Virus record (IMG/VR): IMGVR_UViG_3300042564_004771
Location: 1 to 21,267 of that record
Strand: one strand, 5' to 3'
Length of the DNA: 21,267 nt
Origin: a virus
Shown: in pieces, positions 886-17,819 of the stretch
Layout of the letters: the number at the start of each line of letters is the position of its first letter
How positions within the stretch are numbered: the stretch's first letter is position 1
Notes under the pieces: model-generated
What the model saw: only the letters and a program-made list of their open reading frames with translations
What the model was told of the DNA's origin: nothing
The model's database searches: none
Program-made: the position numbers and the translations under genes

Positions 886-3800
886 TTAACTTGTTATAAC
901 TGTAAATGAAAATGTTTGTGAAATATCTCTAATAATATCATTGGGATTATTGGTGACATTATAAACTACATTTCTGTCGAGAGGTTCTGCAACTAAAGTA
1001 ATTTTACTTTGAATTTTAGTGTCTTTATTGATATCAATAACATAAGTAACTCGTTCACTAACCGCACCTTGTATATCAACATCGGTAATTGAGAAACTTT
1101 GTCGATTTCCACTCACATTATTTTCAAACTCTTTTTCAAAGGTCCCTTCCCCAATTTTCTCATCTACAATTGTATTGTTAGGTCCAACAACAGGTTTAGT
1201 TGCAGTCCATGTCCATTTAACATATTCAGGTAAAATATTCCATTGACCCGAGCCAGGGTTGATAGTGACTACCATATTGGTGTCCCCGCCTGTTGTTTGA
1301 TTAGGTGTTGTATTTGCAATCAATACCACTGGTTGAGGTTGAGTATTAACATTAGGTGGTAATCCCGGTGGTGTTATTGGTATCGATGGCGTTAATTGTT
1401 GAGGGTTATACGTGAATGCACTAAGACTTATCCCATCACCATTTAATCCTTTAACTATTATCGAGTCTTGTTGAAGAACCGGAGTATTACTATAAGGAAC
1501 AATAACACTAATATTAAATCTACTATTAATCGTTATATTTTTTGTGGTCGTTACATTGTTGATTGTGACTGCGGTAACTTGGTCTAAATTATCACCAATA
1601 ATCGTTAAAATAGTCCCACTAATACCTGTTAATGGCGAAAATGTATTTATCGTCGGAGGTGCACAAGTAACACTCACGCTAGTCGTATTTAAATTATTAG
1701 TTGGGTTAGTTATACCATTATTTGTATTCTCAATACTTTTAATTTTAGCGTTATTAACTTTTTTTAGTTCTTTACTTATTTCAATAGGTAATCCCACAAG
1801 CCCTGCTGAGTTAAATGCGTCATCAAATGTTTTTTGTAATTGGGTATACTGACTTAAATTTTTGTCAAAATAGTCTTGCGATACCTTAGATACAGGCCAT
1901 TCACATACATAGTATTTAGTAATTCCAAGTCCTGTGGTTTCATCAAATATCCGAATAACATTTCTACTAAGTCTTGTAACCATGAATGATAAGAACTCTT
2001 TAACTGTATCGAAAATTGCGATTGGTTGTGATGTTGTATCGGGAGTCAAATTTGAAATATTCAAACATGAAAATTTATTTTGCGAAAAGAACTTAACACT
2101 ATCCCCATAATCATCTGTTGTTAATGTTATATTTGCAAAATTATTATTATATCCATTAAATACACCCGAACCCGGTATAAATGTATTAGGATAACATATC
2201 ATATAAATTAAAACTTGTATATAAGGGTCAGTTGTTTCTTTTTTAATTTCGTCGACAAATTGTTGAGGAGTGAGTTTAGTCAATACCGAAGATTGAGCAT
2301 CTCCCCATGTTTGGAAATTGGATGATAAATTATTTCTACATGAATTACTAGCGGCACTACTATTTTTACTAACTTGGGAAACATATTTTGAGGTATCGAT
2401 ATTTGTAATCGCTTTACCTGTTACACTATCTTTAGAATTTCTAATTAAACTTTCAACGTTTGTCAATAAATTCTGATTAATACTTTGTAAGTATTTGTCA
2501 ATTGGCGGTAAATTATAAGTGCTTTGTCTAGTCCCTGTGAATGTTGTTTCAAAAGTTCCTGGAGTAATTGCATGATTGACTTCAGTAATAAAATATGCCC
2601 CATGAAACATTGGGATATGATTTAAATTAAAATACATTGTAGGTTGTAGTAAAGCATTTCCAAGACATTGGACAGTGCACTGATAACTTCTACCTTTATA
2701 GTATTCATATAATCCATTATTTTGGGTTGCAACATTCCTACCTGAATATTGGTCATTCATATTAATAAGCGTCATAACCGATTCAGAAGTCGCTTTGCCA
2801 GGGTCCATAGTTACATTAATCGAGTAAAATACATTTTGATTTCTGATACCAGCATCAACATTAAATCCAACACATTTGTTTGAAATTCCCCAATCTTTTT
2901 TGTTTGTAATATCTTCAATCAATGGGTTATCAGTATATCTCCTCATTTCAAATGAATCACTTCTAAATCTTGAATTTTTTGGTAGTTCAAGATGTTCCGA
3001 AGGTTTTCCAATAAAGAAACAAACCATTTTTGGACTTGAGTTTGTATAATCGGCCTCCAAATATGTTCCCCACATTCTATTTCCAAATTCTAAGCTCCCC
3101 TCAGCGTTTGGTGTTGTTATTCCTGATACATCCTGCACATTATAAAAATTGACATAAGATGGTAATGGCATTACATAAAATTTATTATTAATTAAAATTT
3201 CACTTAAAAACGAATATACACTCATTCTCATATTCAAAGCACTTTTACTAAGAACATTTCTTAAACTAAAGATATCTAAAATTATAGTGTCACCAATATT
3301 TCTAGACGCTCGGTCTAAAAATAAAAAATCTTCAAATAATGTTTTAGTTGAAAAATCCGAACCTGCAATCCATTTATCATTTAACGCCTTGAATACTTCC
3401 CAAGTTTCAATTTTACTTTGCTCACCGTCAATAACGCTCTTAATAGTTCTCTCAGGTAATTCTTGTTGATTAGGTAGCCCCTCTCTTATTTGTGTTAAAA
3501 TTGAATTTAATATGTTACTTTGGAAATTAGAAGTTTTTGTCAAATATTCTTGAAGCTTACTCTTAAATTGCAAAGGAGTTATCGTAGGTTGTAGTAGTTT
3601 TTGAGTTGCCGACATTTTTATAATTGGTGCCAACAATTTGACGTTATTTGTGGTAAATTCAATATTATTGTCAATAAAAAAATCAGTTATATATGAACCT
3701 CCATCAGAATATTTTAAATTAGTTATTGTTGAGAATCCAACTTCAGTTTCTAATGCTAACCACGCATCAGGGTAATTTGTTTTTGATGTGGATAACGTAA

Positions 3801-6800
3801 CATTATTTAATACTGACGGTAAACTATTCCTAACGTAAGGGTTAAATATTATTGGGTTAACAATTGAATTATTACCCCCTCCTTGAGCCAGGTAAGAATC
3901 CATAACCCTCCGGTTATATTGTGCAGGATTCCCATACTTCAATATTACATCATACTCTAAGAATGATTTAATTGTGCTAGAAAATAATGATAATTGGGCA
4001 TCCCCAATGGTATTAAAATATTGTTCGCTAGTTACTGAAGAATTTTTTGAGTTAATCTCCATTAAATTTCTGAACAAGTATTGGAAATTTTTATATAACA
4101 CATTAGGGTCTGAAGGAGATTGCCCTATAGGTATTATTACTTCAGGACCTAAATCAATATTTGCAATTGGTTTAGACCAATTCAAAAATTCTTGTTCAAA
4201 TTTATCTAAAATACTTTTATCAAAGACCGAGAAAATTTCTTCAATTTTAGAATACTCGTCGGTAGTTAATAATTTAAATGGTGATTGTTGTGTCGTACCA
4301 GTTTCAATTTTATTCAAATAAGAATCCGGTTGTGGTTTAACTATTTGTTCATTATTAAAGTAACCATAATTTGGTGATGCCCATAGTGTTCTAACGGAAC
4401 CATTATATATTGAATTGTTATCAATAAAATTACATATTGATTGATTATTGTTAACACATTCAATTTTAGTTTGATTAAATTGGGTTCCAAATGAAGGTAT
4501 AATATAATATTTAAGACTACTTGTGTTATTACTTGGGTTACATTCAGCTCCTGTGGATGTATCATCCCCTAATCCATTGGGAACAATAACCGACCATGTT
4601 TCAATATTTTGGAATGGGTATGTGTTTCCGCTTGACGTTTGTATGTTTGAATCAGTGAAATTAAATACTTGAACTCCATAATCAATACTTTTTTGTATTT
4701 CACTATCTGTGTAATTTTGATACAAATCATAACCATTATAAAATACGTTAAAATCGTTAATTACTTTTGGATAAAATCCTGTCTGTATTTCAACACTATC
4801 ATTAAAAGTATTTTGTAATGTAATTTTTTTAACCCCTTCGTAATTAAATGTATATGTTTTAGTATCAGAACTAACTATCGGGTCAAAATTCCCTTTATAG
4901 TCAAAATTCTTCCAAGCAGAATCTAAAATATCGACATTATCCGTTTTGTATGTTTTATATCGATACCATATAGACCCAAGTTTTAGAACCCAAGCATATG
5001 GCATTTTATGTATCGCACCAAATTTTTTGAAACAAGATGCAATGTAATCCAAATCACTAGAAGCGTCTAATGTTTTATATTTCTCCTTTAGCGATGCCAA
5101 GGGTAGTGAATTGATAAAAAGATATGCCGCTTGGGTATATGGATGCGGGTCCTTTCTTCTCCAATTATAAACCCCGTTTTGAATTGCGTTTACAAAATAA
5201 GGTGTGTTTAACAACGATGTTGTTGTTTCAATAGAGTTATTTCTATTTGGTGAAAAATAATTTACGTATCCTTCAGTTGGTATAAAAAACGTCGGGTTTT
5301 TTCTTAAATCATAAAACGCGGATAATCCAATTGTTGATACGTCACTTGTTGGGTTAGAAACTCTTATATATGAAAAATTAGTTACGGGTCTATTAGTACT
5401 ATAATCGTAAACACTATTAAAATTAGAAATGACATCTCTATCTTCAAATACAGTTAATACTCTATTAGTTGAGTATACCGAATTTTTAGTATTAGTCGCA
5501 CTATTCGCCATATTATCAGAAACCCATTTTGGGTCAGTGAACGGATAAGTATCAATTATTATTGGCTCATTAGTTACGTTTTTAACTATTTGCAATAACC
5601 CATCAGAAATTGTTTGTATTTGAGGTTCTTTACCTAAATCATTTAAACTTAATATATTGAATGAATTATCGGTCAACGCTTTAATATATGGTGTGACAAA
5701 AAAATCTCTAATAAAATCTTGGTAAGAACGTCCAGTACCTTGATTTGATATGTTTTCTAAAAACGTAGGATAGTTCTCAGAGGTTATATTGTAATTTTTA
5801 AGTTTTAATGTTAAGAAAGGTGAACTAACCCCCAAACTTGTTTTAATGTTATTTGTTTCGGCGTTAACAATCAATTTTGATAATTGGTCAAGTTGATTGT
5901 TATTACCTCTAATAAAATTAGAGTAATTTGAAGTTAAGAATTGTCTTTCCCATATTTCATAGAAAAACTTAATCTCTTGTTTATTAACATACGCAATCCC
6001 TTGAGAGGGGTATTCAATCGCATTAACATTAATTATATTTGTTGTGTTTTGGCTATCGATTGGGGGTTGAGTAATTGGCACATCAAATTTTTGTCCGAGA
6101 CCTTTAAAGTATTCTTCAACAAATTCAACTTCAGGCCATACATCATATAACCATCCTTTTGTTTGGTCAACATACCCTGGGTCTCCAGGATATTTTAATT
6201 GAAAACGACCATTCTTAAAATCCGGTGACTCCACAAAAAATTGTGGCCATGGATACACAGGTTCTTCCCCGTTCACCAATCCTTGATTTTGATTTTTAGC
6301 TTCTTGGGAAATGTTATAATGTTGTCTATTATCTACTCCAGGCGCCGAAGACGGATTATTTAAAATAGAGTTAACTCTCGCCGGATGATTCCTTACTTTC
6401 CAAGCATTAGTATGAACTTCATCCATTAGTCTAATGAAACCCTCGGCAGACGCCATAATAACCGCACTAATATTTCTTACGGTTGGTTTAAACCCTAAAC
6501 CTACCGATGAACTTTCAATTTTGTTAGATAAGTCCGTAGTAATTTCAGTTTCATATTCTAATAATTTCTTATTAGATTCAGTATCCATCTTATTTAATAA
6601 ACGTTGGAATTCACTAAAATTATATACGGGGGGAAATACAGTATTGTTATTGTTTGTTTCTTTTATTGGACTTAATTGTTTAATAATTAATTTTTCTTCA
6701 ACTAGTTTGATATCGGCATCGGTTGGTAATAAAATTCCTGTCTGTGATATTGTTGTTCGATATAAATCAATTTCACTTAATGAAATTTGTTTTAAAAAAG

Positions 6801-8163
6801 TATTATATGTTATACTATTTTTAATTGGTGTTTTACTTTTCTTACCTAATGTTGGATTAGTTTCTAATAATTTATTAAAATCAGTTACATACCCCGAAAG
6901 GAATGTATTCGATTCTTGTCTTATTGTTTGATTTTCAAGAAACTCTTGTTTAAAAATAAAAACTTCTTCACCAGTTCCTTTTAATATAATAGGTTTAGGG
7001 TTCATATATTTATTAAACCACGATTGACTTCCCGAGTAAACTTCAATAAAATAATTTGATAAAGTTTCTTGATAATTTCTAATATTGGTTAAAGGTTCAA
7101 TAACAACTGGTGGGTATGATTGTTGAATCGTCTTTTCAAAATCTTGTAGTTTATTCATCAGTTGGGTTATCGTCAATTCAGGGAAATCAAGACTAATTAA
7201 ACCTTTTGATTTATATTCACTGTAAACTTCAACAATTTTTTGGTATCCCTTTTCCGCAACAAGTTCTGTGACAACATTATTTTTTGATATTGATGATTCT
7301 TTAGATATTACATTACTTTTAGATTGTGACTCAATATTCTTGTTTGAACCTCCTTCAGGTGACGTTGTTGATTTTGAAATATCAAAAATTTTACTATACA
7401 TGTGAGGTGTTGCTAATAAGCTCCCCATTGATATTTCATTTAATATATTAAATTTAAACCCCGAAAAGTCTAATTCAATTGAATAATTACCACTAAACGT
7501 ATTATATCTCGCATTAAATTTTAAAAGGTTCAATTGATATCTAACCGCTTGCCCATAATACCCCTTAAGTGTAAGATAAAAAGGGCAATATGGCATATTA
7601 AAAAATGCGGCATATGGCGAATCATCCCCAAGTTGAAATAATGCTCTTCCTTGGACATCTTCAAGCGTCATACTAACCGTAGGGACAAATGAAGTATTTG
7701 TTTTGATGTTAATACTTGTTATACCGAGTAATCCATTATCTGTCGATTTTTTACCCGGGTTGGAAAGTGATGATTTTATATATGGATTTTTCCCATTTGG
7801 TGGTGTAATTATTTCTTCCTGTATTTGATTATCACCTAAACCATTTCTAGTGTTTTTACCAGTCAATTCATCATAATAACCTGTCGTTAAGAAAGTTTCT
7901 TCGGTTGGTTTTAGAAAATTTATGGCCGCGATTGAGATAGTTCTATTTGTATCATTTGGTGCAGCACCAATTGACAATTTTGTTCTCGGTAATAATTCCG
8001 CCTCAAGATTAACATACATGACTAAATTTTCATGGTCAACTAACCTTTCTTTAATATTACCAAACGTATCTATAGTTTTATTTGGGTCAACAACTGCAAT
8101 GTTTTGATAATCAAACTCTACTAAAATATTACCACTTTTATCTCCTTGTAAATTACCTGCCAT
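886..8163 (-). CDS. Giant baseplate hub protein (gp27/gpD-like regions plus IPT/TIG domain), 2425 residues
   Basis: This is probably the central hub at the end of the tail tube. The N-terminal region (about 1-260) has FDYQNIAVVDP near the start and NMPYCPFYLTLKGYYGQ near 190-205, a pattern of hub-type phage proteins. A second hub-like block lies near 1835-1885, with MYFNLNHIPMFHGAYFI, VNHAITPG and TGTRQS, like the end of gpD/gp27-type hubs. The region between (about 270-1750) is unassigned; it includes a well-ordered stretch near 1048-1070 (GAIHKMPYAWVLKLGSIWYR). Residues about 1975-2065 contain GYNNNFANITL, similar to lysozyme-like modules of phage tail proteins, but I see no clear catalytic Glu. 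An IPT/TIG immunoglobulin-like domain spans about 2167-2252 (PTINTFSPLTGISGT), followed by a Pro-rich linker and a C-terminal beta-rich domain. T4 gp27 is only 391 residues. The start overlaps the LysM gene by 11 bases, so the two are translationally coupled. Confidence 0.8.
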   Translation of the reverse strand: MAGNLQGDKSGNILVEFDYQNIAVVDPNKTIDTFGNIKERLVDHENLVMYVNLEAELLPRTKLSIGAAPNDTNRTISIAAINFLKPTEETFLTTGYYDELTGKNTRNGLGDNQIQEEIITPPNGKNPYIKSSLSNPGKKSTDNGLLGITSINIKTNTSFVPTVSMTLEDVQGRALFQLGDDSPYAAFFNMPYCPFYLTLKGYYGQAVRYQLNLLKFNARYNTFSGNYSIELDFSGFKFNILNEISMGSLLATPHMYSKIFDISKSTTSPEGGSNKNIESQSKSNVISKESSISKNNVVTELVAEKGYQKIVEVYSEYKSKGLISLDFPELTITQLMNKLQDFEKTIQQSYPPVVIEPLTNIRNYQETLSNYFIEVYSGSQSWFNKYMNPKPIILKGTGEEVFIFKQEFLENQTIRQESNTFLSGYVTDFNKLLETNPTLGKKSKTPIKNSITYNTFLKQISLSEIDLYRTTISQTGILLPTDADIKLVEEKLIIKQLSPIKETNNNNTVFPPVYNFSEFQRLLNKMDTESNKKLLEYETEITTDLSNKIESSSVGLGFKPTVRNISAVIMASAEGFIRLMDEVHTNAWKVRNHPARVNSILNNPSSAPGVDNRQHYNISQEAKNQNQGLVNGEEPVYPWPQFFVESPDFKNGRFQLKYPGDPGYVDQTKGWLYDVWPEVEFVEEYFKGLGQKFDVPITQPPIDSQNTTNIINVNAIEYPSQGIAYVNKQEIKFFYEIWERQFLTSNYSNFIRGNNNQLDQLSKLIVNAETNNIKTSLGVSSPFLTLKLKNYNITSENYPTFLENISNQGTGRSYQDFIRDFFVTPYIKALTDNSFNILSLNDLGKEPQIQTISDGLLQIVKNVTNEPIIIDTYPFTDPKWVSDNMANSATNTKNSVYSTNRVLTVFEDRDVISNFNSVYDYSTNRPVTNFSYIRVSNPTSDVSTIGLSAFYDLRKNPTFFIPTEGYVNYFSPNRNNSIETTTSLLNTPYFVNAIQNGVYNWRRKDPHPYTQAAYLFINSLPLASLKEKYKTLDASSDLDYIASCFKKFGAIHKMPYAWVLKLGSIWYRYKTYKTDNVDILDSAWKNFDYKGNFDPIVSSDTKTYTFNYEGVKKITLQNTFNDSVEIQTGFYPKVINDFNVFYNGYDLYQNYTDSEIQKSIDYGVQVFNFTDSNIQTSSGNTYPFQNIETWSVIVPNGLGDDTSTGAECNPSNNTSSLKYYIIPSFGTQFNQTKIECVNNNQSICNFIDNNSIYNGSVRTLWASPNYGYFNNEQIVKPQPDSYLNKIETGTTQQSPFKLLTTDEYSKIEEIFSVFDKSILDKFEQEFLNWSKPIANIDLGPEVIIPIGQSPSDPNVLYKNFQYLFRNLMEINSKNSSVTSEQYFNTIGDAQLSLFSSTIKSFLEYDVILKYGNPAQYNRRVMDSYLAQGGGNNSIVNPIIFNPYVRNSLPSVLNNVTLSTSKTNYPDAWLALETEVGFSTITNLKYSDGGSYITDFFIDNNIEFTTNNVKLLAPIIKMSATQKLLQPTITPLQFKSKLQEYLTKTSNFQSNILNSILTQIREGLPNQQELPERTIKSVIDGEQSKIETWEVFKALNDKWIAGSDFSTKTLFEDFLFLDRASRNIGDTIILDIFSLRNVLSKSALNMRMSVYSFLSEILINNKFYVMPLPSYVNFYNVQDVSGITTPNAEGSLEFGNRMWGTYLEADYTNSSPKMVCFFIGKPSEHLELPKNSRFRSDSFEMRRYTDNPLIEDITNKKDWGISNKCVGFNVDAGIRNQNVFYSINVTMDPGKATSESVMTLINMNDQYSGRNVATQNNGLYEYYKGRSYQCTVQCLGNALLQPTMYFNLNHIPMFHGAYFITEVNHAITPGTFETTFTGTRQSTYNLPPIDKYLQSINQNLLTNVESLIRNSKDSVTGKAITNIDTSKYVSQVSKNSSAASNSCRNNLSSNFQTWGDAQSSVLTKLTPQQFVDEIKKETTDPYIQVLIYMICYPNTFIPGSGVFNGYNNNFANITLTTDDYGDSVKFFSQNKFSCLNISNLTPDTTSQPIAIFDTVKEFLSFMVTRLSRNVIRIFDETTGLGITKYYVCEWPVSKVSQDYFDKNLSQYTQLQKTFDDAFNSAGLVGLPIEISKELKKVNNAKIKSIENTNNGITNPTNNLNTTSVSVTCAPPTINTFSPLTGISGTILTIIGDNLDQVTAVTINNVTTTKNITINSRFNISVIVPYSNTPVLQQDSIIVKGLNGDGISLSAFTYNPQQLTPSIPITPPGLPPNVNTQPQPVVLIANTTPNQTTGGDTNMVVTINPGSGQWNILPEYVKWTWTATKPVVGPNNTIVDEKIGEGTFEKEFENNVSGNRQSFSITDVDIQGAVSERVTYVIDINKDTKIQSKITLVAEPLDRNVVYNVTNNPNDIIRDISQTFSFTVITS

Positions 8164-8476
8164 AATAATAAAAATATTCGGACACCGCCGCTTTATAGTC
8201 TTGTAATGAAGGTAGTAAAGGATATGGGATTATCAATACCGCACCGTCATATATATTATTTTCTAAACCGCCAAATTGGGGATTTGCCTGTAAAATTAAC
8301 CAACCGAAAAAAGGTGAATTGTAAAATTCTTGTGAGACAACATCTAATCTACTTCTACCTACTTTATAAATAAATGTTTTATCTGTTGTCTTTTGAACAA
8401 TGTTTACAAAAGGAACAACAGTTTGTTCACCATTAATTAAAAAGTCACTATATCTATTCCAATATTGATATGCCAT
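8153..8476 (-). CDS. LysM-type baseplate protein (T4 gp53 / P2 gpX-like), 107 residues
   Basis: A small baseplate protein expected to connect the tube-proximal baseplate with the hub. The central region has the LysM pattern: TFIYKVGRSRLDVVSQEFYN, then an aromatic/hydrophobic segment (FFGWLILQANPQ) and GAVLIIPYPL, matching the usual 'Y.V..G.RLD.IS.E.Y...W..I..AN....G..L.IP'. LysM-like proteins occur in this slot as gpX of P2, gp53 of T4 and Afp7 of contractile injection systems. In phage baseplates the fold serves assembly and need not bind peptidoglycan. The start overlaps the stop of the 1673-residue gene (TAATG), and its own end overlaps the hub start by 11 bases, so all three are probably made in fixed ratio. 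No Shine-Dalgarno motif is seen. The C-terminus is Tyr-rich (EYFYYYGR). Confidence 0.8.
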   Translation of the reverse strand: MAYQYWNRYSDFLINGEQTVVPFVNIVQKTTDKTFIYKVGRSRLDVVSQEFYNSPFFGWLILQANPQFGGLENNIYDGAVLIIPYPLLPSLQDYKAAVSEYFYYYGR

Positions 8477-11400
8477 TAGTTAAGTTTTGCTTTTGATATA
8501 AATACATTAGCAGGACTTTCGTCATTCCATGTTTTATTGTTTGTATTTTGATTTTCAACCCACCCTAAACCTTTAATTAGTTTTTGTTGTGCTTCATTAT
8601 TCGGACCTTCTGTAGTATATGTAAATGTCCTTTTTTTCTTTAAATTAAATGGAGTATATTTTAAAAAGTCCTTTAATTTATTTTTCTCCATTTCATCAAT
8701 AAAAAATTTAGTTATTGCGTTTTCTTCTTCAAATACAGGTTTTGCAATTGTTAACCAGTATTTATCAAACTCCACACTTAAATTACCATTATCACCTTTA
8801 CCTATTAATGTAGAATTACTTAAAATATTACCAATTAACGCGTTCTTAAATGATTCATATTTTTTAGAATCTACCACATCATTAGATATTATCATATAAA
8901 CCCTTCTAAAAACAAATCCATTATTTCTATCAAATAATTTGTTTTGGCTAAATGGGTTAAAAACTTCTTCGGTTGAGGGTTTTTTATTATCGTTTGGTTC
9001 AAAAACTAAATTACCCGTATAAGTTTTATTATCATATGTAAAAGTATTTGCACTCGATATAATTTTGTTAAATTCAGTAATACCACTTTTAATTTTTTTC
9101 ACATCATCATATAACTCAATTAAAGTATTCGGGGCATTATTTGAACTAGGGTCGACTTCAGTAGTTCCTGACACATTATATGAAACAATTTTACCATCTT
9201 TTAATTGATACCCGTCAGTTCCTGTATTTGTCACAGCGCTATAACTAATAGTATTTACCCTACCAATATACCCAATATAACTTTGTTGGGTTGAAACAAT
9301 GCCGTTAGTTATATTAGTAATTGCGTTTTGGAAGGAACCTCTTTTATTATTAACAAAATTTGAATAATTTTCTTGGAGTTGGTTTACAAGTCTATTTGTA
9401 AAATTTTGGTTTGCAATAAATTTAATAAACCCTTCGTCTTCTTTTTTAATATCCTTAATTAATTGTCCAAATATTTCATTAGTTCTTTTTTCCAAATTAT
9501 ATGGTTTACCAAATAAGATAGTGTCCGAATCTTTTGTTAACGTAAATTTACCCCTTTGATATGTTCTTTCTAACATCCATTGTTGACGAACCGCATTATT
9601 ATATTGATTAAATGATTCTCTATTTTTATTAACCACATTAGTAAAATAATTTTGAGTTTCTCCAACCATTTTATCCATAAATGAACTATAACTAATTGTT
9701 CCCGTTTGACCACTTTGACTGACGACATTAGTAATTATTGTTCCGATAGCACTGTCATTTGTCTGACCATTATTTGGTGAGGATTGGTTAATTGTTGGCG
9801 GAGCAACACTTTCAATCGCAGATTTTAAAAAGTCGGCATCAATTACTTTATAACTCAAATCAGTTGAATCCGCTCTATCATCATAAATTTCTGTATTAGC
9901 GTAATAATTGAACGTTAATGCATTTTGTAGTTTATCTACTGATTCTTTTAATCCACTACCTCCAACAAAATTAAACCCTAAAGTAATATTCGCAATCATT
10001 GGTTGGACTCCAATACCTTCCGGGTTTAAATCTAATTCTTCATAAGTAATACCCAAACTTGTTGGGATTATTTTAGTATTATAAAAATCCCCAACCCGTA
10101 AAATTAACACCGGTGGTGCCCCAAATGAAGTATTGGTTGCATTATTATACGTAAGAGTTTTACTTCCTCCATTATCTACCTTAACCGTCGGGATTGTATC
10201 GCCAGGTCTCATACATTGTTGTAAGAAAGTTAACCTCGAATTAAGCCCTTCAGGGGTGATTGAATGAAATCCTGGTTGAAAAAACTTCAACTTATCTCTA
10301 AGGTTGTCATAAACCATAGGACTTTCCTCTTTAATCGCCTCAAAATAATCACATTCAGATAGTAGGGCACGTAATACTCGTTTACTAATATTATCCTTTA
10401 ACGTGACTTTTGTTTCTATTGTTGGGACAGTTGTTGTTGTTTTAACAACATTACCAACAAGAACTGTAGTGTCTTTTGGTGGTAAATCCGCCGGAGGGGC
10501 TTTCAATGTTGAAGTTATTTTTGATATGTAAGCTCGTCTACAAGCCATTGCGGTTGTCGTAAATATCTCCGAATTTGGTGGATTACTATTAGCATCAGTA
10601 CAAGATACTTTTTCGTTTTGAACAAATTGCTTAGTTTTTTCATCGTATTTACTAACTTCGCTTGTCTCCCCTAAACCTAAACCCACATTAAATCGTAATC
10701 GTCCACTTCGCACATAGTCTTGCATTCTAGTATTACCTGTAATGTATATTATCGCAGATTGTATTCTTCTAGCCGACAAGTCGGCATTAGAGGCGGTGGA
10801 CGACTTTGCGGATGCGGTTGCTTCAAAATTTAAAGTTATTGTTCCCTCTATGTTTCCATCATTGTCAGTAGAATTAATAAATTGTTTATCTATTTCATTT
10901 ATTAATTCATCAATTCGATTTTTATTTGGTATAACTACGCTATCAAAAAACGAATTTGTTGCTTCAGGATTTTTAGAATTCGTGTTATATAAGTCCCTAC
11001 TAATATTATTAGTGTAGTTAGTATATGTTGTTTGAAAATTAACATTATATGTTAAAGGTATTGCATTTTCAAAGTAAAATCCTATATTTTCAAATTGTTT
11101 TAAATTATTTTCAGTGGCATTAACTGAACGATTATCAGTTGAGACTTGCGGAACATCTGAAATTGTTTTAACCGAATATTCAATTTGTTCTTTTGTTAAT
11201 TCTTTAGAACTTAAAGCTGTTTGAAATTGGAACAAATCATTTGGTGATATTGTGTAATATTTTTTAGCTAACTCATATATATCATATTTTCTACATCCCG
11301 CAAAAAAAGATTCTAAAATACTATCAATTCTAGTTTTATTTGTTTCGTTTGACAATACTTTATTTACGATAACATTTAAGACCGATGGGTGGTCAACAAC

Positions 11401-13497
11401 AATTTTCCAAGTTAAAGTACCCCCTCTACTTGTATTTTTATAGGTATATATGGGTTCGGGTCTACCAATAAAATCGGTTGGTTGCCAATTGGCTTGTATA
11501 TTCTCACTAAAGGTTAATCCATATGGTGGAAACCACATTACTCTACCTCCATTAGGACCTCTTTCACATACAGGTAAATCCGAAACCGTAAATCCGGGTG
11601 TGTTTGATGTTACCCATGCCAAGTTTTCTATTGAGAACATGTATTTTTTTGCAACCGCATTATTATAAGTTCCAATTAAATTTGTCGAGTCCTGACCTCC
11701 TTCTTGTTTATTAGGAGCAATATTTAAGTTATATGTTTTATCTAACACCGAATATGCGAATCTTCTCCCTTCAGTAACAATACCATCGGTTTTCTGTAAA
11801 TCATTGTATTGTAAATAAGGAGTATCTTTAGCAAAAACTCGACAATATTCCGCTCCTACTTCTTGACCAATTGACCCAACATAACTCAAGACTCTAGAAC
11901 CTTTCGTTAATTCTTTATACCCATCATTAAAAACTTTAGAAACTTGGTCAATAGCGTTACCAACATGTTGTAATCGTTTACCCCCTTGAGGTTGACTATT
12001 AATTATCCTTTGAGTTTCATCAAGAATAGAACCTTGTTTTAAAGTTCTTTCTGTTGATTCAGTTGAGTTATATGATGATGGCCTAAAGTCTTCATCTTGG
12101 TTAATCACAACACCTCCAACACCCACTTTTTTACCAGCATTACCTCTATATTTTGTAGAAGTCCATGTAAATCCACCTTCAATACCACCCCCATTACTAT
12201 ATGTTGGTCCGTTTGCCCCCAGTCTAATTTCTTTACTAGGTCCCTCATATAATTGAGCAAGTTCTTGAGGTCCGTAAACAGGTGATTGTTGTTCATTACC
12301 AAAAGAATCTACGGGTAATTCTCTACTCGGTGAGAATACTCTTGATGGGTCAGATGTTGTTGACCCAACATAAAAATTAGCATTATTTGTTTGGGTTCCA
12401 ACAATTACACCTCCCAGTCTATCTAATAATGTTCTATCGTAGTTTGGTTTATATCGATTAAAATTAATATTTTTCCATAAGATAGATTTTTGTCCTCCTC
12501 CCGTATTATTGTAAAAAATTTGAGACCCTGTCTTTCCCGCCCCCAATAAATTTGATACAAAATTACCTGCCGCAGCAATTGGGTTGGCAAGTAAGGATTG
12601 GGCTATTGTTGATGGTCTTGGAGGATTAATACTTGGGTCAAAATAAGAACCGGGTATTAATGAAAAAGGAAGTTCACTTCCTGCCAATCTAAGTGAAAAG
12701 TCTGCCGCCGCGGTTATAGGATTAGACGGGACAGTAATTTGGTAATTGGGTTCAATTAATGGGACTCGACCCGTTAAAATATTAACAACATTCGTACTAC
12801 TATTAATATTTAAAAAATTTGCACGACCTATAGTTTCTCGAATGATTGCTCGTCCAATTCTTTCTTGGAATTCTCTTCTAAGTGTTCTCGCACCTAATCG
12901 AGCAATAAAGGAATCTTGGCTCAAACGACCATTACTACCTTGTGGGTCTGATGATAATAATATTGATAATGGTGAATAAGATGACGAATTAAATGTTGTT
13001 GGGTATGGTTGATTATTATATAAATTTGGGATTCCTCCTGTGAGTCCGTTGTTTATTGAATCCGGAGACACAATTGCTTCTCCAGCATCTAATTGTTGAA
13101 GACTATTACTACCATAGGCGTTTAATGGTTGCCATGCAGGTGCAATACCCGGAAATCCAATCTTTGCGGCAATTTGGGCATCGTCTAAAAGTTTTGCGTC
13201 TTGTTGTCCAGGTCCATACTCTCCTTTATTCGGTGCGATAACATTAACAGGTAAATCCGGTAATTGTTGATATCCCCCATCATTACCCCACTTATTGAGA
13301 GGGTATAACTTATCGGCAAAAAATGGTGTATCAATTAGAGAATCGTCACTATCAACAGGAACCAAATCCGATTGAATTATCTCATAATTTGTTGGAGGAG
13401 TTACTTTAGTTGGAGATTTAACATAAGGCACTAAGTTTCTTGAAACTAGTTTTTTTCTAAATCCTTCCGTACTAATAAAATCTAATGGACTTCCCAT
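8476..13497 (-). CDS. Very large baseplate/tail protein with internal OmpA-like domain, 1673 residues
   Basis: This gene lies between the tape measure and the LysM/hub genes, the place of gpU in P2 and of gp48/gp54-type tube-end proteins in T4. The N-terminal third is Gly/Asn/Ser/Pro-rich and poorly assignable. Residues about 618-710 form an ordered block (RVMWFPPYGLTF, FIGRPEPIYTY, VVDHPS) typical of phage tail-end or baseplate proteins. Residues about 885-945 read like an OmpA C-terminal domain: T894, N904, LSARRIQS at 907-914 and GLGLGE at 939-944, in the right order and spacing. The OmpA aspartate after that threonine is Ala895 here, while the key arginine is kept (R911). Residues about 1140-1220 are another ordered block (GVQPMIANITLGFNF). 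The C-terminal 400 residues look mixed helical. A promoter-like element lies 11 bases upstream. Membership of the baseplate is well supported by context; the exact role is not. Confidence 0.75.
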   Translation of the reverse strand: MGSPLDFISTEGFRKKLVSRNLVPYVKSPTKVTPPTNYEIIQSDLVPVDSDDSLIDTPFFADKLYPLNKWGNDGGYQQLPDLPVNVIAPNKGEYGPGQQDAKLLDDAQIAAKIGFPGIAPAWQPLNAYGSNSLQQLDAGEAIVSPDSINNGLTGGIPNLYNNQPYPTTFNSSSYSPLSILLSSDPQGSNGRLSQDSFIARLGARTLRREFQERIGRAIIRETIGRANFLNINSSTNVVNILTGRVPLIEPNYQITVPSNPITAAADFSLRLAGSELPFSLIPGSYFDPSINPPRPSTIAQSLLANPIAAAGNFVSNLLGAGKTGSQIFYNNTGGGQKSILWKNINFNRYKPNYDRTLLDRLGGVIVGTQTNNANFYVGSTTSDPSRVFSPSRELPVDSFGNEQQSPVYGPQELAQLYEGPSKEIRLGANGPTYSNGGGIEGGFTWTSTKYRGNAGKKVGVGGVVINQDEDFRPSSYNSTESTERTLKQGSILDETQRIINSQPQGGKRLQHVGNAIDQVSKVFNDGYKELTKGSRVLSYVGSIGQEVGAEYCRVFAKDTPYLQYNDLQKTDGIVTEGRRFAYSVLDKTYNLNIAPNKQEGGQDSTNLIGTYNNAVAKKYMFSIENLAWVTSNTPGFTVSDLPVCERGPNGGRVMWFPPYGLTFSENIQANWQPTDFIGRPEPIYTYKNTSRGGTLTWKIVVDHPSVLNVIVNKVLSNETNKTRIDSILESFFAGCRKYDIYELAKKYYTISPNDLFQFQTALSSKELTKEQIEYSVKTISDVPQVSTDNRSVNATENNLKQFENIGFYFENAIPLTYNVNFQTTYTNYTNNISRDLYNTNSKNPEATNSFFDSVVIPNKNRIDELINEIDKQFINSTDNDGNIEGTITLNFEATASAKSSTASNADLSARRIQSAIIYITGNTRMQDYVRSGRLRFNVGLGLGETSEVSKYDEKTKQFVQNEKVSCTDANSNPPNSEIFTTTAMACRRAYISKITSTLKAPPADLPPKDTTVLVGNVVKTTTTVPTIETKVTLKDNISKRVLRALLSECDYFEAIKEESPMVYDNLRDKLKFFQPGFHSITPEGLNSRLTFLQQCMRPGDTIPTVKVDNGGSKTLTYNNATNTSFGAPPVLILRVGDFYNTKIIPTSLGITYEELDLNPEGIGVQPMIANITLGFNFVGGSGLKESVDKLQNALTFNYYANTEIYDDRADSTDLSYKVIDADFLKSAIESVAPPTINQSSPNNGQTNDSAIGTIITNVVSQSGQTGTISYSSFMDKMVGETQNYFTNVVNKNRESFNQYNNAVRQQWMLERTYQRGKFTLTKDSDTILFGKPYNLEKRTNEIFGQLIKDIKKEDEGFIKFIANQNFTNRLVNQLQENYSNFVNNKRGSFQNAITNITNGIVSTQQSYIGYIGRVNTISYSAVTNTGTDGYQLKDGKIVSYNVSGTTEVDPSSNNAPNTLIELYDDVKKIKSGITEFNKIISSANTFTYDNKTYTGNLVFEPNDNKKPSTEEVFNPFSQNKLFDRNNGFVFRRVYMIISNDVVDSKKYESFKNALIGNILSNSTLIGKGDNGNLSVEFDKYWLTIAKPVFEEENAITKFFIDEMEKNKLKDFLKYTPFNLKKKRTFTYTTEGPNNEAQQKLIKGLGWVENQNTNNKTWNDESPANVFISKAKLN

Positions 13498-13547: not shown

Positions 13548-15386
13548 TTACTTTCTTCTTTCAAGTTCTTTTGATTTTTGAGATTGATATTCATAGATTA
13601 ATCTTTTGAATTCTTCAGATTCGAAATACGTTTTTAATTGTTGTTGACTAACCCCTGGAGGTGCATCAACTTTAATTGTTATAACCCCCCCAAAATCAAT
13701 TTTTGTATTAACTTCTTTAGTTGTTTCGATATAATTTTTTTGAGTAGTTCCAACTCCCATTATTTGATTTCTTGATATTGGACTTACAGACATCTGTCCT
13801 TTTGGGTTAACATTTTTTGAAATTTGTGCAATATTTTTTGAAACTTGTTTGTTATAACTTTCTCCTGTTATTTCTTTCCTAAAAAATTGTTCAATACTAC
13901 TACTACCTGTAACTCCTTTTGCAGTCTCATTTAAAATTTCTTTAAGGATTTTTACCCCCTCATCCCCTATTTTACCCGCAGAACCAACTAACATACTTTC
14001 AATTTTTGATAAATTATTCGGAATATCCTTAAGTGAAATCGACCCTTGTTGGACGTTACCTATAAGATTCATCATTTTTTGTATCATTTCTCCAGAAAAC
14101 TCTCTAACTCTTCCTGTTGTTGGCGCTTTCTTTTGAGTAACATCCGCAAATTTAGTGACAATGTTTCTTAGTCCTTCAATATTTGTTGACAATTCAGGTG
14201 CTGTTGCAGCACCGAATCTTATCGTATTTAAAATTGCCTTCGCATCAGCCGCCAAATTTTCTGTCACACCCAATTGACTTTTTTGAATATCTTCAAGAGT
14301 TTTTGGGGCCTTTTTTTGTTGGTCAATTAATTTATTAAACTCTTCTTGATTTAAATTTTGTAACTCTTTTCTTGTCCCATCATTAAGTGTAACTTCATAC
14401 CTCTTACTATCTTTACCCATACTAAGAATATTTGTCAAATATTGCTTATCTTCTTCATTTTCAAATTTTAAACCGACACTACTGACTTGAGATAATCTTT
14501 TATCTAAGTCTGCCGCCGCCAAGGCCGATTTTGATAATGTTCCTGACGCCAATCCTGCGGCATCTTCCATTTCTTTTAAAATTAACACACCTTGTCGACT
14601 AATCTTAAACGATTGTGTTTCTTCACTAAAATATGTAAATTGTTGTCCTACTCTAGCCAAACTATCTTGTAATCCGGCGGGATTTGTCAAAGATTCGTGC
14701 ATCATTGCAAATGGGTCGACTAAATTACCAGCCAATACTCCTAATCTTTGGAATGTTGCCGCCATGTTAATAGCGTCTTCAGGTCGTAACACTTTTTCTG
14801 CAAAATTAAAAGTATCGGACATACTAAACCTCAACATTGAAGCTTGAGCTGCCATTTTTGTTAAACCAATTACTCCTCCTTCAAATTGATACCGATTCAT
14901 TTTTTCCATGTTAGCGGAAACGTCAGACATTACAGTACGAGCATTTAAACCAACACTTTGGATATAAGTTATCGAATTTTCTAAATTTACCCCAATTTGA
15001 GATGTTTCATAACCAACATTTTTAAATTGGTTGGTTAATTCTTGAGCACTAGTTCCTAAAATTTTAGAAGCGGCATATAGTTTTGAAACAACAAGTTCAT
15101 TTTCAATAACATTTCTATTTGATGCTTCAGCAATTTGAGAAATTGTTGCAGTAACATCTTTTAAACTACCTCCCAACTTTGTGACAACTACGGAAGAGTT
15201 CGCAAAAGCAACATTCATTTCCTGAATCCTACTTCTACCTAATGTAAAATTTCTATTTAATTCATCACTATAGTTAACCATGTCAGCAATAGTACCGCTA
15301 ACTAGTTCGACTGGTGACATGATTTCACGTAGAGTCTTATTTAAATCCTCTAATTTCTTTCTACTTTCGTCATTTAAATCGGCCAT
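13548..15386 (-). CDS. Probable tail tape-measure protein, 612 residues
   Basis: Probable length-determining protein of the tail, positioned directly after the gp26/gp51-like genes as gp29 (T4, 590 residues) or gpT (P2) would be. The sequence is largely helical with low aromatic content: repeated LNDESRKKLEDLNKTL-type helices at the N-terminus, then long Ala/Ser/Asn-rich segments (TATISQIAEASNRN, AQASMLRFSMSDTF, INMAATFQRLGVLAGNL) resembling the core of TP901-type tape measures. The C-terminal 70 residues change to beta-like sequence (TKIDFGGVITIKVDAPPG) and end in a charged helix (QSQKSKELERRK). If helical, about 600 residues would span roughly 90 nm at 1.5 angstrom per residue, a plausible myovirus tail. 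No lytic domain is seen. The ATG at 15386 has no Shine-Dalgarno motif but a strong promoter-like element just upstream. Assignment rests on position and composition, with little motif evidence. Confidence 0.65.
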   Translation of the reverse strand: MADLNDESRKKLEDLNKTLREIMSPVELVSGTIADMVNYSDELNRNFTLGRSRIQEMNVAFANSSVVVTKLGGSLKDVTATISQIAEASNRNVIENELVVSKLYAASKILGTSAQELTNQFKNVGYETSQIGVNLENSITYIQSVGLNARTVMSDVSANMEKMNRYQFEGGVIGLTKMAAQASMLRFSMSDTFNFAEKVLRPEDAINMAATFQRLGVLAGNLVDPFAMMHESLTNPAGLQDSLARVGQQFTYFSEETQSFKISRQGVLILKEMEDAAGLASGTLSKSALAAADLDKRLSQVSSVGLKFENEEDKQYLTNILSMGKDSKRYEVTLNDGTRKELQNLNQEEFNKLIDQQKKAPKTLEDIQKSQLGVTENLAADAKAILNTIRFGAATAPELSTNIEGLRNIVTKFADVTQKKAPTTGRVREFSGEMIQKMMNLIGNVQQGSISLKDIPNNLSKIESMLVGSAGKIGDEGVKILKEILNETAKGVTGSSSIEQFFRKEITGESYNKQVSKNIAQISKNVNPKGQMSVSPISRNQIMGVGTTQKNYIETTKEVNTKIDFGGVITIKVDAPPGVSQQQLKTYFESEEFKRLIYEYQSQKSKELERRK

Positions 15387-15398
15387 ATAATTTAATTA

Positions 15399-15429
15399 TT
15401 ATCTATAAATAGATTAAGGTTAGTTTTTT
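15399..15429 (-). promoter_or_regulatory. Candidate promoter element, copy A of a 31-bp repeated motif
   Basis: On the minus strand: six A, then CTAACCTTAAT, then CTATTTATAGATAA. It matches 13508-13538 at 26 of 31 positions. The TATTTATA core (15411-15404) ends 17 bases before the tape-measure ATG. Its first bases overlap the stop codon of the second-frame reading at 15430-15428. The core flanks also form an inverted repeat (ATCTAT/ATAGAT). Confidence 0.55.
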
Positions 15430-15607
15430 AGTCTTTAGTATTATCTTCAACCCATTTATCTAATAGATATTTTCTTACAAAAATTGGCATTTGTAAAAAA
15501 TCTTGGTATGTGACTTTCATTAAGTTATTCAGATAGTAAAATTCATCTATCTGATTTTTTCTATAATCAGAAGAAAGGGCGAAAAAATTCGACCCCAAAC
15601 CCAACAT
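15428..15607 (-). CDS. Second-frame C-terminal extension or small gp51-like tail chaperone (59-residue open frame)
   Basis: An open frame that is +1 relative to the gp26-like gene overlaps its last 39 bases and runs on to 15428. It has an ATG at 15607-15605 directly after a TGA in the same frame, giving 59 residues; a later ATG at 15520 would give 30. The protein reads as a real one: FFALSSDYRKNQIDEFYYL, then VTYQDFLQMPIFVRKYLLDK, a helical '.sy.dfl.MP...R.yll..w' pattern as in small T4-type tail assembly proteins. It sits between the chaperone and the tape measure, where lambda GT and P2 E' are made by frameshifting. Either it is joined to the 247-residue protein by recoding at 15582-15587 (giving about 293 residues) or it is translated from its own start. 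No good Shine-Dalgarno motif favours the ATG. Confidence 0.65.
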   Translation of the reverse strand: MLGLGSNFFALSSDYRKNQIDEFYYLNNLMKVTYQDFLQMPIFVRKYLLDKWVEDNTKD

Positions 15608-16310
15608 TCACTGTCAGCTTTTCTCCGGACGGGGCCATTATTGTTTTAGTCATATCCAATCTAGGTTCGTTTTGATTCATAAAATTTCTTATATATTTGG
15701 AATCCGCGATTGGCATGGATTCAACAAATTTTGCAATTGTCGCTTTATCATTTGAACCTTCAATTTCAACAATTTCTTTTTGTAGTCTCCAAGTAATTTT
15801 AGGGACAACTCTACCAACAGGATAGGTTTCACTTAAACGAGAAATTTCCATAATTTCACCATAATTTAATGGTTTTATTTTAATAGTAGATTGTGATTTT
15901 GGTAATTTTATAGTAAAGGTTCCGTCATCATTAGGTTGTTGACCTTCAATAATTGGTAACTCATTTAATAAAACCGTTGTTTGGAATGGTTTGTTTGTAT
16001 TTGGGTCATTAAGATTTAAATCTATTTCAGGTCCAAATGCAGTGTTTCTTAGAAATATTAAAATTGATTCTACATCACCTTCAATTAAGTCTTCAACTCT
16101 CATGTCCGGTTCATAAATTTTTGACCTTAGTAAATTTATCGTAATATCAGAATTACTTCCCATTAAAATGTTTTCATCAGATGCTGTAAGATATCCAACT
16201 TTTAATGCCTTTTTCTTGTTCTTATAAAATATACCTTTAGATGGTAATGGCACCACGTCATGTGGTAATGTAAAATTTTCTTGACCGTAGTCTCTTGATT
16301 GTGTTTCCAT
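15567..16310 (-). CDS. T4 gp26/gp51-like baseplate hub or tail assembly chaperone, 247 residues
   Basis: Resembles the T4 baseplate protein family that contains gp26: it begins with a short tail, then LPHDVVPLPSKGIFY (15-29), the hallmark 'lPs.G..Y' opening, followed by LKVGYLTASDENIL and DMRVEDLIEGDVESIL, and KIKPLNYGEIMEISRL around residues 145-160. In T4-type phages these proteins act in assembly of the central hub and tail tube and may not stay in the virion; in this gene order it occupies the slot of the lambda G / P2 E chaperones. It ends VEFFRPFF, with a second frame continuing past the stop. The ATG at 16310 is only 4 bases after the T-run of a strong hairpin, so its ribosome site is unusual and no Shine-Dalgarno motif exists. 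Confidence 0.8.
   Translation of the reverse strand: METQSRDYGQENFTLPHDVVPLPSKGIFYKNKKKALKVGYLTASDENILMGSNSDITINLLRSKIYEPDMRVEDLIEGDVESILIFLRNTAFGPEIDLNLNDPNTNKPFQTTVLLNELPIIEGQQPNDDGTFTIKLPKSQSTIKIKPLNYGEIMEISRLSETYPVGRVVPKITWRLQKEIVEIEGSNDKATIAKFVESMPIADSKYIRNFMNQNEPRLDMTKTIMAPSGEKLTVNVGFGVEFFRPFF
15582..15587 (-). promoter_or_regulatory. Candidate +1 (or -2) ribosomal frameshift site, T6 run followed by CGC
   Basis: On the minus strand the zero frame reads GAA TTT TTT CGC CCT TTC TTC TGA. A tRNA-Phe on the second TTT could move +1 to TTC, or -2 to TTT, with good pairing. Either move enters the second frame (GCC CTT TCT TCT GAT). CGC is likely a rare codon in this AT-rich genome and could cause a pause. 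The zero-frame stop lies four codons downstream. Confidence 0.5.
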
Positions 16311-16392: not shown

Positions 16393-16881
16393 TTAATAAA
16401 CTAATACACATCTATCCATACGAAGTTGTGCGGTAATATCCGCTAATGCGTCTTGACTATAACTTAAAGCTCCAAAATTAACATCAGTTAAAAATGTTCC
16501 ATAAAGAATCCATTTTTCAACTACAACCCCTGTTGGGTCTAACATTTCAAGGTCGATATCTTTTTTATAACCCGCAGCATAACCCATACGACCGGTAACA
16601 GATTCGGCATGTAGACGAACCCACTCCATAAGTGCTTGAGCTGCTGAAGGACCAATCGGGTCACGGAATTTAACCGAAATTGGGTCCCAATTAAATCTAC
16701 CAGCAACAAATGTTGATGTATTTAAAAATTGTATTTCAGTTGGTGCAATTTTAATAGTTGGTCTTGACGCACTCTCAACAAACCATTCATTTATCCCTAA
16801 ACTTGATGGAAACCTTAAAATAAACCGGTTCTGTCTTTTTGGTTCATAAGGTATGGGCATTTTCATTAATAAATCAGCCAT
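16393..16881 (-). CDS. Tail tube protein, T4 gp19-like, 162 residues
   Basis: Major subunit of the inner tail tube, polymerising as stacked hexameric rings inside the sheath. Length (162) is almost the same as T4 gp19 (163). Family features are clear: a basic Pro-containing N-terminus (PIPYEPKRQNRFILRFP), SASRPTIKIAPTEIQFLNT near residues 38-56, the conserved WDPISVKFRDPIGPSAAQA around 65-83, EWVRLHAESVTGRMGYA, and a C-terminal beta strand pair (YGTFLTDVNFGALSYS). It has its own upstream promoter-like element and is followed by a strong terminator, as expected for a protein needed in many copies per virion. The start ATG at 16881 has an A-rich leader without Shine-Dalgarno. Confidence 0.95.
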   Translation of the reverse strand: MADLLMKMPIPYEPKRQNRFILRFPSSLGINEWFVESASRPTIKIAPTEIQFLNTSTFVAGRFNWDPISVKFRDPIGPSAAQALMEWVRLHAESVTGRMGYAAGYKKDIDLEMLDPTGVVVEKWILYGTFLTDVNFGALSYSQDALADITAQLRMDRCVLVY

Positions 16882-16977: not shown

Positions 16978-17805
16978 CTATTTATATTCCTTTTTAATTC
17001 CTCCAGCAGTAGAATAAGTCTTAACTATGTTATCTGGTTTATCTTTAAAATGTTTACTCATTACTTCTACATTTTTAATATCATCATCTGAAAATCCTAT
17101 TACTGGTTCTTTTGGTATAAAATTATTTGAGATTTCATTTTTAATAAATGCTCTTTTATTTAAAATTCCAGCCATTCCTTTTATATATGATACAAAAGCT
17201 TCCATAGCTTTAACTTTTAATTCTTCAGGATTAGCAGCACTTCCTTCACCAAAAGTTACAGGGTGATATTTGTTTAATTCTAAATATGATTTAATTAATT
17301 CATCATCACTCATTTCATCTTCACCAACAAATGTTCTGTATTTTTTTAAATTCTTAACTAATTCATCTTTATTTATCCCGTTGAAATCACTTACAATGTA
17401 ATTATACACCGCTTGCTTTAATGTTTCCGGATTATGACCTCGAGCGGTTATGATTGAAAATATTGACCCATTATTGATTGCCTCTTTAAAGTCTCCAAAT
17501 GCAGGTCCTTCTTTAGCTCTCATCGCATCAACTAAAAAATCTTTGTCACCTTCCGTTCTAAAATTTCTAAATGGATTGTCCGCAAAACCGACAATAGTAT
17601 CTCCTTTATATTGAACAGGATTTTTACCTAAATCATGTCTATACTCTGCAAAATCATCGGTGCTCATACCAATTTCCTCACCATCTTCAGTTTTTAACAT
17701 AATTTTAGTTGGCATATGAACAATATTATCATCCCAATCAAAGGCATAATATTTCATATCTGGTGTTCCCTCGGGTTTAAAACCTTCTTTAAGTTGTCTT
17801 TTCAT
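16978..17805 (-). CDS. HAD-superfamily phosphatase-like protein, 275 residues
   Basis: Probable HAD-fold hydrolase. Numbering is from the ATG at 17805; a TTG three codons earlier (17814) directly follows an in-frame stop and is less likely. Motif I is FDWDDNIVHMPT at 22-33, with the nucleophile Asp23 and the acid Asp25. Motif II is SIITARGH, with Thr120. Motif IV is VIGFSDDDIKNV, with the acidic run Asp240-242, for Mg2+. A lysine for motif III must lie in the helical region between (near 190-225). DWDDN in place of the common DxDGT resembles phage and nucleic-acid-related HAD proteins, but the substrate cannot be read from sequence. It sits between sheath and tube, an unusual place for an enzyme. 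The spacer to the sheath stop carries a hairpin. The region is AT-rich like its neighbours, so there is no compositional sign of recent transfer. Confidence 0.8.
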   Translation of the reverse strand: MKRQLKEGFKPEGTPDMKYYAFDWDDNIVHMPTKIMLKTEDGEEIGMSTDDFAEYRHDLGKNPVQYKGDTIVGFADNPFRNFRTEGDKDFLVDAMRAKEGPAFGDFKEAINNGSIFSIITARGHNPETLKQAVYNYIVSDFNGINKDELVKNLKKYRTFVGEDEMSDDELIKSYLELNKYHPVTFGEGSAANPEELKVKAMEAFVSYIKGMAGILNKRAFIKNEISNNFIPKEPVIGFSDDDIKNVEVMSKHFKDKPDNIVKTYSTAGGIKKEYK

Positions 17806-17819
17806 ATTTGGCAATTAAA

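Follow-up and report, generated by a model that had tools for sequence, protein, structure and literature searches.

Background

Does the gp26-like tail gene of a phage end at its stop codon, or do some ribosomes leave its frame and make a longer protein? The question is raised by the 21,267-base virus record IMGVR_UViG_3300042564_004771 (the window; coordinates are positions of the whole stretch, and the genes of the chaperone region lie on the minus strand), in which an open reading frame (ORF), here called ORF2, overlaps the end of the gp26-like gene and continues past it in another frame. From sequence comparison we consider it very probable that +1 ribosomal frameshifting yields a short and a long tail assembly chaperone (TAC) from this one gene. 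The features on which the argument turns are the following.

15567..16310, minus strand: putative short chaperone (TAC-N), gp26-like, 247 amino acids (aa), from Pfam and PHROG matches and an AlphaFold2 model
15579..15587, minus strand: candidate shift site TTT_TTT_CGC, where the Phe codon UUU in the P site can re-pair +1 on UUC
15567..15569, minus strand: frame-0 stop TGA ending the short form, TGA or TAA in aligned relatives
15607-15428, minus strand: ORF2, in the +1 frame relative to the gp26-like ORF
15605..15607, minus strand: ATG of ORF2, not its start under the preferred reading, with a stop between it and the run of six T (T6) in L004, L052/L056 and L070/L071/L077/L078
15428..15580 (stop at 15430-15428), minus strand: predicted +1-frame extension (TAC-C-like, resembling the gp51 C-terminus), from its entropy pattern and a profile match

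The second frame beyond the gp26-like stop

The ORF2 frame stays open for 139 nucleotides (nt) beyond the gp26-like stop and there encodes the peptides YRKNQIDEFYYL and VTYQDFLQMPIFVRKYLLDK. Reading the site as TTT TTT C|GCC gives the junction VEFFALSSDY and a fusion of 293 aa. The first-pass annotation had described the same arrangement, and each of its coordinates was recovered (ORF end at 15567, ORF2 in +1, 139 nt past the stop, T6 at 15587-15582 followed by CGC), as were its junction and its fusion length of about 293 residues. The open frame is not attributable to chance, because it was open in 0.36% of shuffles of the 180-nt ORF2 stretch, because no other gene end in the window is comparable (at most 61 nt of open alternative frame past the stop, excluding ends simply overlapped by the next gene), and because the +1 frame was retained in 36/36 distinct closest-relative sequences, with third-position variation as in a coding frame.

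The short protein belongs to a known tail family. It matches PF12322 (T4_baseplate; E 5e-8, 33.3 bits against a curated cut-off of 24.5) and the baseplate hub family phrog_150 (E 1.4e-11). The AlphaFold2 model, which covers the frame-0 protein only, reached pLDDT 87 and pTM 0.82; its best BFVD matches were gp26-like baseplate hub proteins, the baseplate hub subunit of SP-15 was matched with a TM score of 0.80, and T4-like hub assembly proteins were matched as well. Sequence and fold searches of the PDB returned no significant solved structure, and the HK97 tail assembly chaperone 2OB9 ranked seventh against the model (E 1.1, probability 0.51, non-significant). The missing match to an HK97/lambda-type fold leaves the claim that the protein works like those chaperones unaffected.

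Conservation of the shift site

A scan of IMG/VR recovered 80 loci with 77-100% protein identity. Among these closest 80 relatives the sequence TTTTTTCG, T6 followed by C, is invariant, and the gene end has the same form in each. Across 47 distinct genes, which are related sequences and not independent trials, codons 242-243 are TTT TTT in 47/47, codon 244 is CGT in 24 and CGC in 23, and codon 245 is CCT in 47/47. Elsewhere in the same genes Arg is encoded by AGA at 331/400 positions, by CGT at 14/400 and by CGC at 0/400. No Arg codon is rarer in the window than CGC (0.2 per thousand codons), and TTT_CGN occurs in frame once in the 6649 codons of the window, at the shift site. Synonymous variation over 9 and over 12 codons has its minimum for the gene at this point. 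Alternation between CGT and CGC that never reaches AGA seems hard to explain by descent alone. What was found is what a +1 site would be expected to have: a conserved sequence capable of re-pairing, with a rare codon in the A site.

Junctions in the wider gp26 family

Further queries with the gp26-like proteins of LR756508, Mel-JY01, immuto and GXN1 added 181 more loci; P0010 as a scan query gave one locus only. A longer extension in the +1 frame was present at the same place in 259/264 family genes. At all 173 distinct +1 junctions, the permitted stretch contains a frame-0 UUU with U or C as the next base, in the forms TTT_TTT_TGG (89), TTT_TTT_CGY (32), NNN_TTT_CTT (29), TTC_TTT_TGG (9) and some rarer ones.

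These sites bear on the direction of the shift, for which +1 and -2 had both been proposed at first. In a -2 shift tRNA-Phe would go from the second UUU two bases back and one Phe would be added; T6 allows this, and both TTT codons are invariant in the group of the window. A -2 slip of tRNA-Phe is, however, impossible at 44/173 distinct sites (TTC_TTT_TGG, TTC_TTT_CGT and NNN_TTT_CTT), which keep the same frame, whereas 173/173 can shift +1, and the -2 half of the proposal is therefore disfavoured. The strictly retained C after T6 and the rare CGY codon in the A site also suit a +1 move onto UUC, and we regard a -2 shift as unlikely.

Exceptions to the +1 arrangement were also found in the family. 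At the ends of two gp26-like genes inside the +1 half of the family tree (L087, position 3271, and L270, position 2163) the open frame is -1 and begins at T_TTT_TTC, which suggests that the shift direction has switched inside the family. In three others (L100, position 2229; L105, position 2217; L275, position 2309) the extension starts with an ATG of its own, which follows or overlaps the gp26 stop, and there the frameshift seems to have been replaced by a split gene.

Where selection on the second frame begins

Alternatively, ORF2 might encode a small protein of its own, translated from the ATG at 15607, which falls within the end of the gp26-like gene. The window has this ATG, no stop intervenes in 33/36 distinct relatives, and some relatives at a greater distance (L100, L105 and Pseudomonas phage Cygsa01) do have separate starts. 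The variation is at odds with such a start. From the ATG to T6, variation at the three ORF2 codon positions is 0.16, 0.60 and 0.00 across the 36 distinct sequences, with its peak at the third positions of frame 0, so that it tracks gp26 coding and not ORF2 coding; beyond the frame-0 stop the codon-position entropy is 0.35/0.16/0.74, as for a translated ORF2 frame. Three distinct sequences (L004; L052/L056; L070/L071/L077/L078) have an ORF2-frame stop between the ATG and T6 and yet keep the rest of ORF2, LSSDYRKxQIDEFYYL included. Frame-0 variation upstream, +1 variation downstream and the three interrupted relatives together place the beginning of ORF2 selection at T6, not at the ATG.

In the wider family, 45/173 sites lack any ATG, GTG or TTG between the upstream stop and the fourth codon beyond the frame-0 stop, and a separate start would leave the conservation of TTT TTT and CGY unexplained. 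Judged by these alignments, the ATG is dispensable and the second frame is under protein-level selection from T6 on; we consider a separate start very unlikely. Recoding, as first proposed for this gene end, is supported by the invariant T6-C and by selection that begins there. It had also been asked whether related phages conserve T6-C and the second frame but not the ATG: the first two are conserved, and the ATG is interrupted in the three relatives and usable in 33/36.

Slippage of RNA polymerase on the T run, producing mixed mRNAs of which a part is read in the second frame, would draw on the T6 or T7 run of many family members. Six T residues are short for bacterial polymerase slippage, and members with TTT_CTT_TGG, the form present in Flavobacterium phage immuto, or TTC_TTT_CGT have T runs of at most 3 and yet keep the +1 frame; the existence of sites without a T run longer than 3 argues against this explanation, which we judge highly improbable. 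That the extension is a broken relic of sequencing error or gene decay has no supporting point that we could find and is next to impossible, given the same frame relation at 173 distinct sites in many independent assemblies and isolates and the coding-type variation.

The alignments show the site and its conservation, selection on the second frame and an ATG that is dispensable. Several points weigh against +1 frameshifting at this gene. The ATG at 15607 is intact in the window and usable in most of the distinct sequences, as given above; gp26 coding alone could preserve it. The T6 of the window phage would permit -2 as well as +1. A stimulatory RNA structure was sought, and among the candidate hairpins and the GGGG described below none was convincing by position or support. 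The gene at 13548..15386 is assigned as tape measure by position. Finally, the extension of the window compared directly with T4 gp51 gave an hhalign value of 0.7%, which is not significant.

Relationship to gp51 of T4 and the cyanophages

T4 gp26 consists of PF12322 alone (residues 1-206 of 208), and T4 gp51 of PF12322 (1-201) plus 48 residues. The first-pass annotation had noted that the two parts are usually described as separate genes; a fused form nevertheless has a precedent in T4, where gp51 is itself a gp26-type domain with an extension. A profile of the window extension matched the tails that other gp26-family phages have in the +1 frame (95%, E 2.6e-8), a profile of the +1-phage extensions matched the cyanophage type (81%, E 1.2e-5), and the cyanophage profile matched the T4 gp51 C-terminus (95.5%, E 1.6e-8); reversed controls of these comparisons stayed below 1%. 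The extension of the window is thus, on profile evidence, related to the C-terminal part of gp51 through intermediates only, the +1 phages and the cyanophages.

Cyanophage S-RIM8 has an open -1 frame running from T_TTT_TTC at the gp26 end, and the last part of this frame is what has been annotated as a baseplate hub assembly catalyst of 45 aa; the heptamer and the open -1 frame are present in 80/80 S-RIM8 gp26 relatives in IMG/VR. Aeromonas phage 65.2 and phage SRB7757 likewise have T_TTT_TTC with a -1 frame; in Pseudomonas phage Cygsa01, L100 and L105 the extension is preceded by a separate ATG instead. At L274 (2681-2869), the start annotated for the 45-aa cyanophage gp51, the baseplate hub assembly catalyst, is an ATG inside a longer -1 frame. 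The fusion is probably missing from the public annotation of many cyanophages.

A tree of 51 gp26 domains separates a half with -1 shifts or duplicated genes from a mainly +1 half (support 100/100), the latter holding the -1 members L087 and L270. The mode changes 4 times on this tree against 17.4 expected from shuffles; deep placements are unsure owing to long branches.

Proposed mechanism and function

Slippage by the ribosome, its efficiency, a trigger by the rare codon and a role as chaperone are inferred. The majority of ribosomes would terminate at 15567, their product being the short gp26-like protein. Some would pause while peptidyl-tRNA-Phe sits on the second UUU and the A site presents the rare CGC; while CGC waits, the P-site tRNA-Phe would slip one base forward, from UUU to UUC, and reading would continue in the +1 frame to give the 293-aa form, whose C-terminal part resembles gp51. 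On the model of lambda G/GT, the short form would serve to coat the tape measure protein, and recruitment of tube subunits would fall to the long form.

Gene order, family and the short/long pair fit a tail assembly chaperone. The tube gene (16393-16881) lies on one side, and on the other a presumed tape measure gene, named from the annotation of relatives; a TAC gene would be expected between the two. T4 gp26 and gp51 appear as hub assembly chaperones in PMC3004832. In lambda the tape measure is bound by the short form and the tube protein by the T part (PMC5009743). For influenza PA-X, Firth et al. showed +1 frameshifting at UUU_CGU by mass spectrometry and argued for a P-site slip (PMC3498833). 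The release factor 2 gene shifts +1 on CUU_U and sometimes UUU_U (PMC5009743).

Comparison with known systems

Frameshifting is reportedly conserved in several T4-like groups, according to the abstract of a 2022 paper on their chaperones. The paper itself identified the T4-like tail assembly chaperones (Vladimirov, Gautam, Davidson 2022, Virology 566:9-15; cited in PMC10885494 and PMC12846349); as cited, some have a short gene plus a separate fused long gene (PMC10885494), and others have poly-T -1 signals (PMC12846349). An earlier review, from 2016, called the G-T frameshift widely conserved, T4 excepted. To the extent that the 2022 paper is represented in these citations, the principle was already known, and a fused gp26/gp51, which the first-pass annotation had considered worthy of notice, had been published as short and fused long forms.

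The T4-like chaperones share with the window the short-form Pfam/PHROG family and, in most non-T4 members, the same tail-gene position, and would share a short/long pair with a gp51-type C-terminal part. T4 differs in having two separate genes, and the T4-like frameshifts as cited are -1 on poly-T, whereas that proposed for the window is +1 at TTT_TTT_CGY. Lambda G/GT and P2 E/E' resemble it in a gene just before the tape measure, a shift close to where the short form ends and a long form with a C-terminal extension (PMC5009743), but shift in the -1 direction, and no sequence relation to gp26 was found. Influenza PA-X has the same P-site UUU followed by CGN and +1 re-pairing on UUC (PMC3498833); with a eukaryotic ribosome and an unrelated gene, the resemblance is one of mechanism only. 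The bacterial release factor 2 gene, prfB, uses a +1 P-site slip (PMC5009743), as is proposed for this family, and members of the family with CTT_TGG and TTT_TGG are similar to it at the P site; the A-site codon here, in contrast, is a sense codon.

The new part is the +1 direction across a large clade and the UUU_CGY site, for which we found no earlier description. It is likely that a large gp26-family clade shifts +1 at a P-site UUU_U/C and that the cyanophage/T4 half relies on -1 shifts or gene duplication, which would make this one homologous chaperone that has switched shift direction; in the subgroup of the window the site would have become fixed as UUU_CGY, the pause being provided by the rarest Arg codon, a bacterial parallel to influenza PA-X. 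The clade in this reading comprises uncultured freshwater and marine phages, Flavobacterium immuto, Microcystis Mel-JY01, Bacillus SP-15, Rhodothermus RM378 and others. The tail-chaperone frameshift would then extend to a large T4-related phage group in which annotations show two hypothetical genes or lack the second part. One homologous protein would offer a natural series of +1, -1, split and duplicated genes, and the UUU_CGY subgroup a ready test of P-site slippage before a rare codon in bacteria.

Candidate stimulatory elements

Two elements near the shift site were considered.

15593..15596, minus strand: invariant GGGG, 5 nt upstream of T6 (codon 239 is GGG in 47/47 distinct genes)
15530..15553, minus strand: hairpin CAGATAG/CTATCTG in the extension, some 28 nt beyond the shift site (7 pairs, 92% paired)

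GGG encodes 124/787 of the Gly residues elsewhere in the gp26-like genes. In the consensus fold GGGG pairs with CGYCCT, with no compensatory changes, and it is possibly a Shine-Dalgarno-like or hairpin element. The CAGATAG/CTATCTG hairpin shows compensatory change at 2 pairs (32 distinct sequences) and is absent from the RNAalifold consensus; codon choice could account for part of its signal.

Neighbouring genes

The tail genes run on the minus strand in the order sheath, a 278-aa ORF, tube, gp26-like gene, ORF2, presumed tape measure and large baseplate-type genes. No tRNA genes were found in the window.

16393..16881, minus strand: tail tube gene (phrog_4542 tail tube, E 9e-25)
13548..15386, minus strand: presumed tape measure gene, client of the chaperones, by position and because its counterpart is annotated as tail tape measure protein in immuto and LIS04

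The product of 13548..15386 had no family match of its own in the Pfam and PHROG searches. The 278-aa ORF between sheath and tube (16978-17814, minus strand) had no significant Pfam or PHROG match; its location is unusual for a gene that may be non-structural. Two very large proteins without a family match, of 2425 and 1673 aa (886-8163 and 8476-13497, minus strand), are probably baseplate or hub components.
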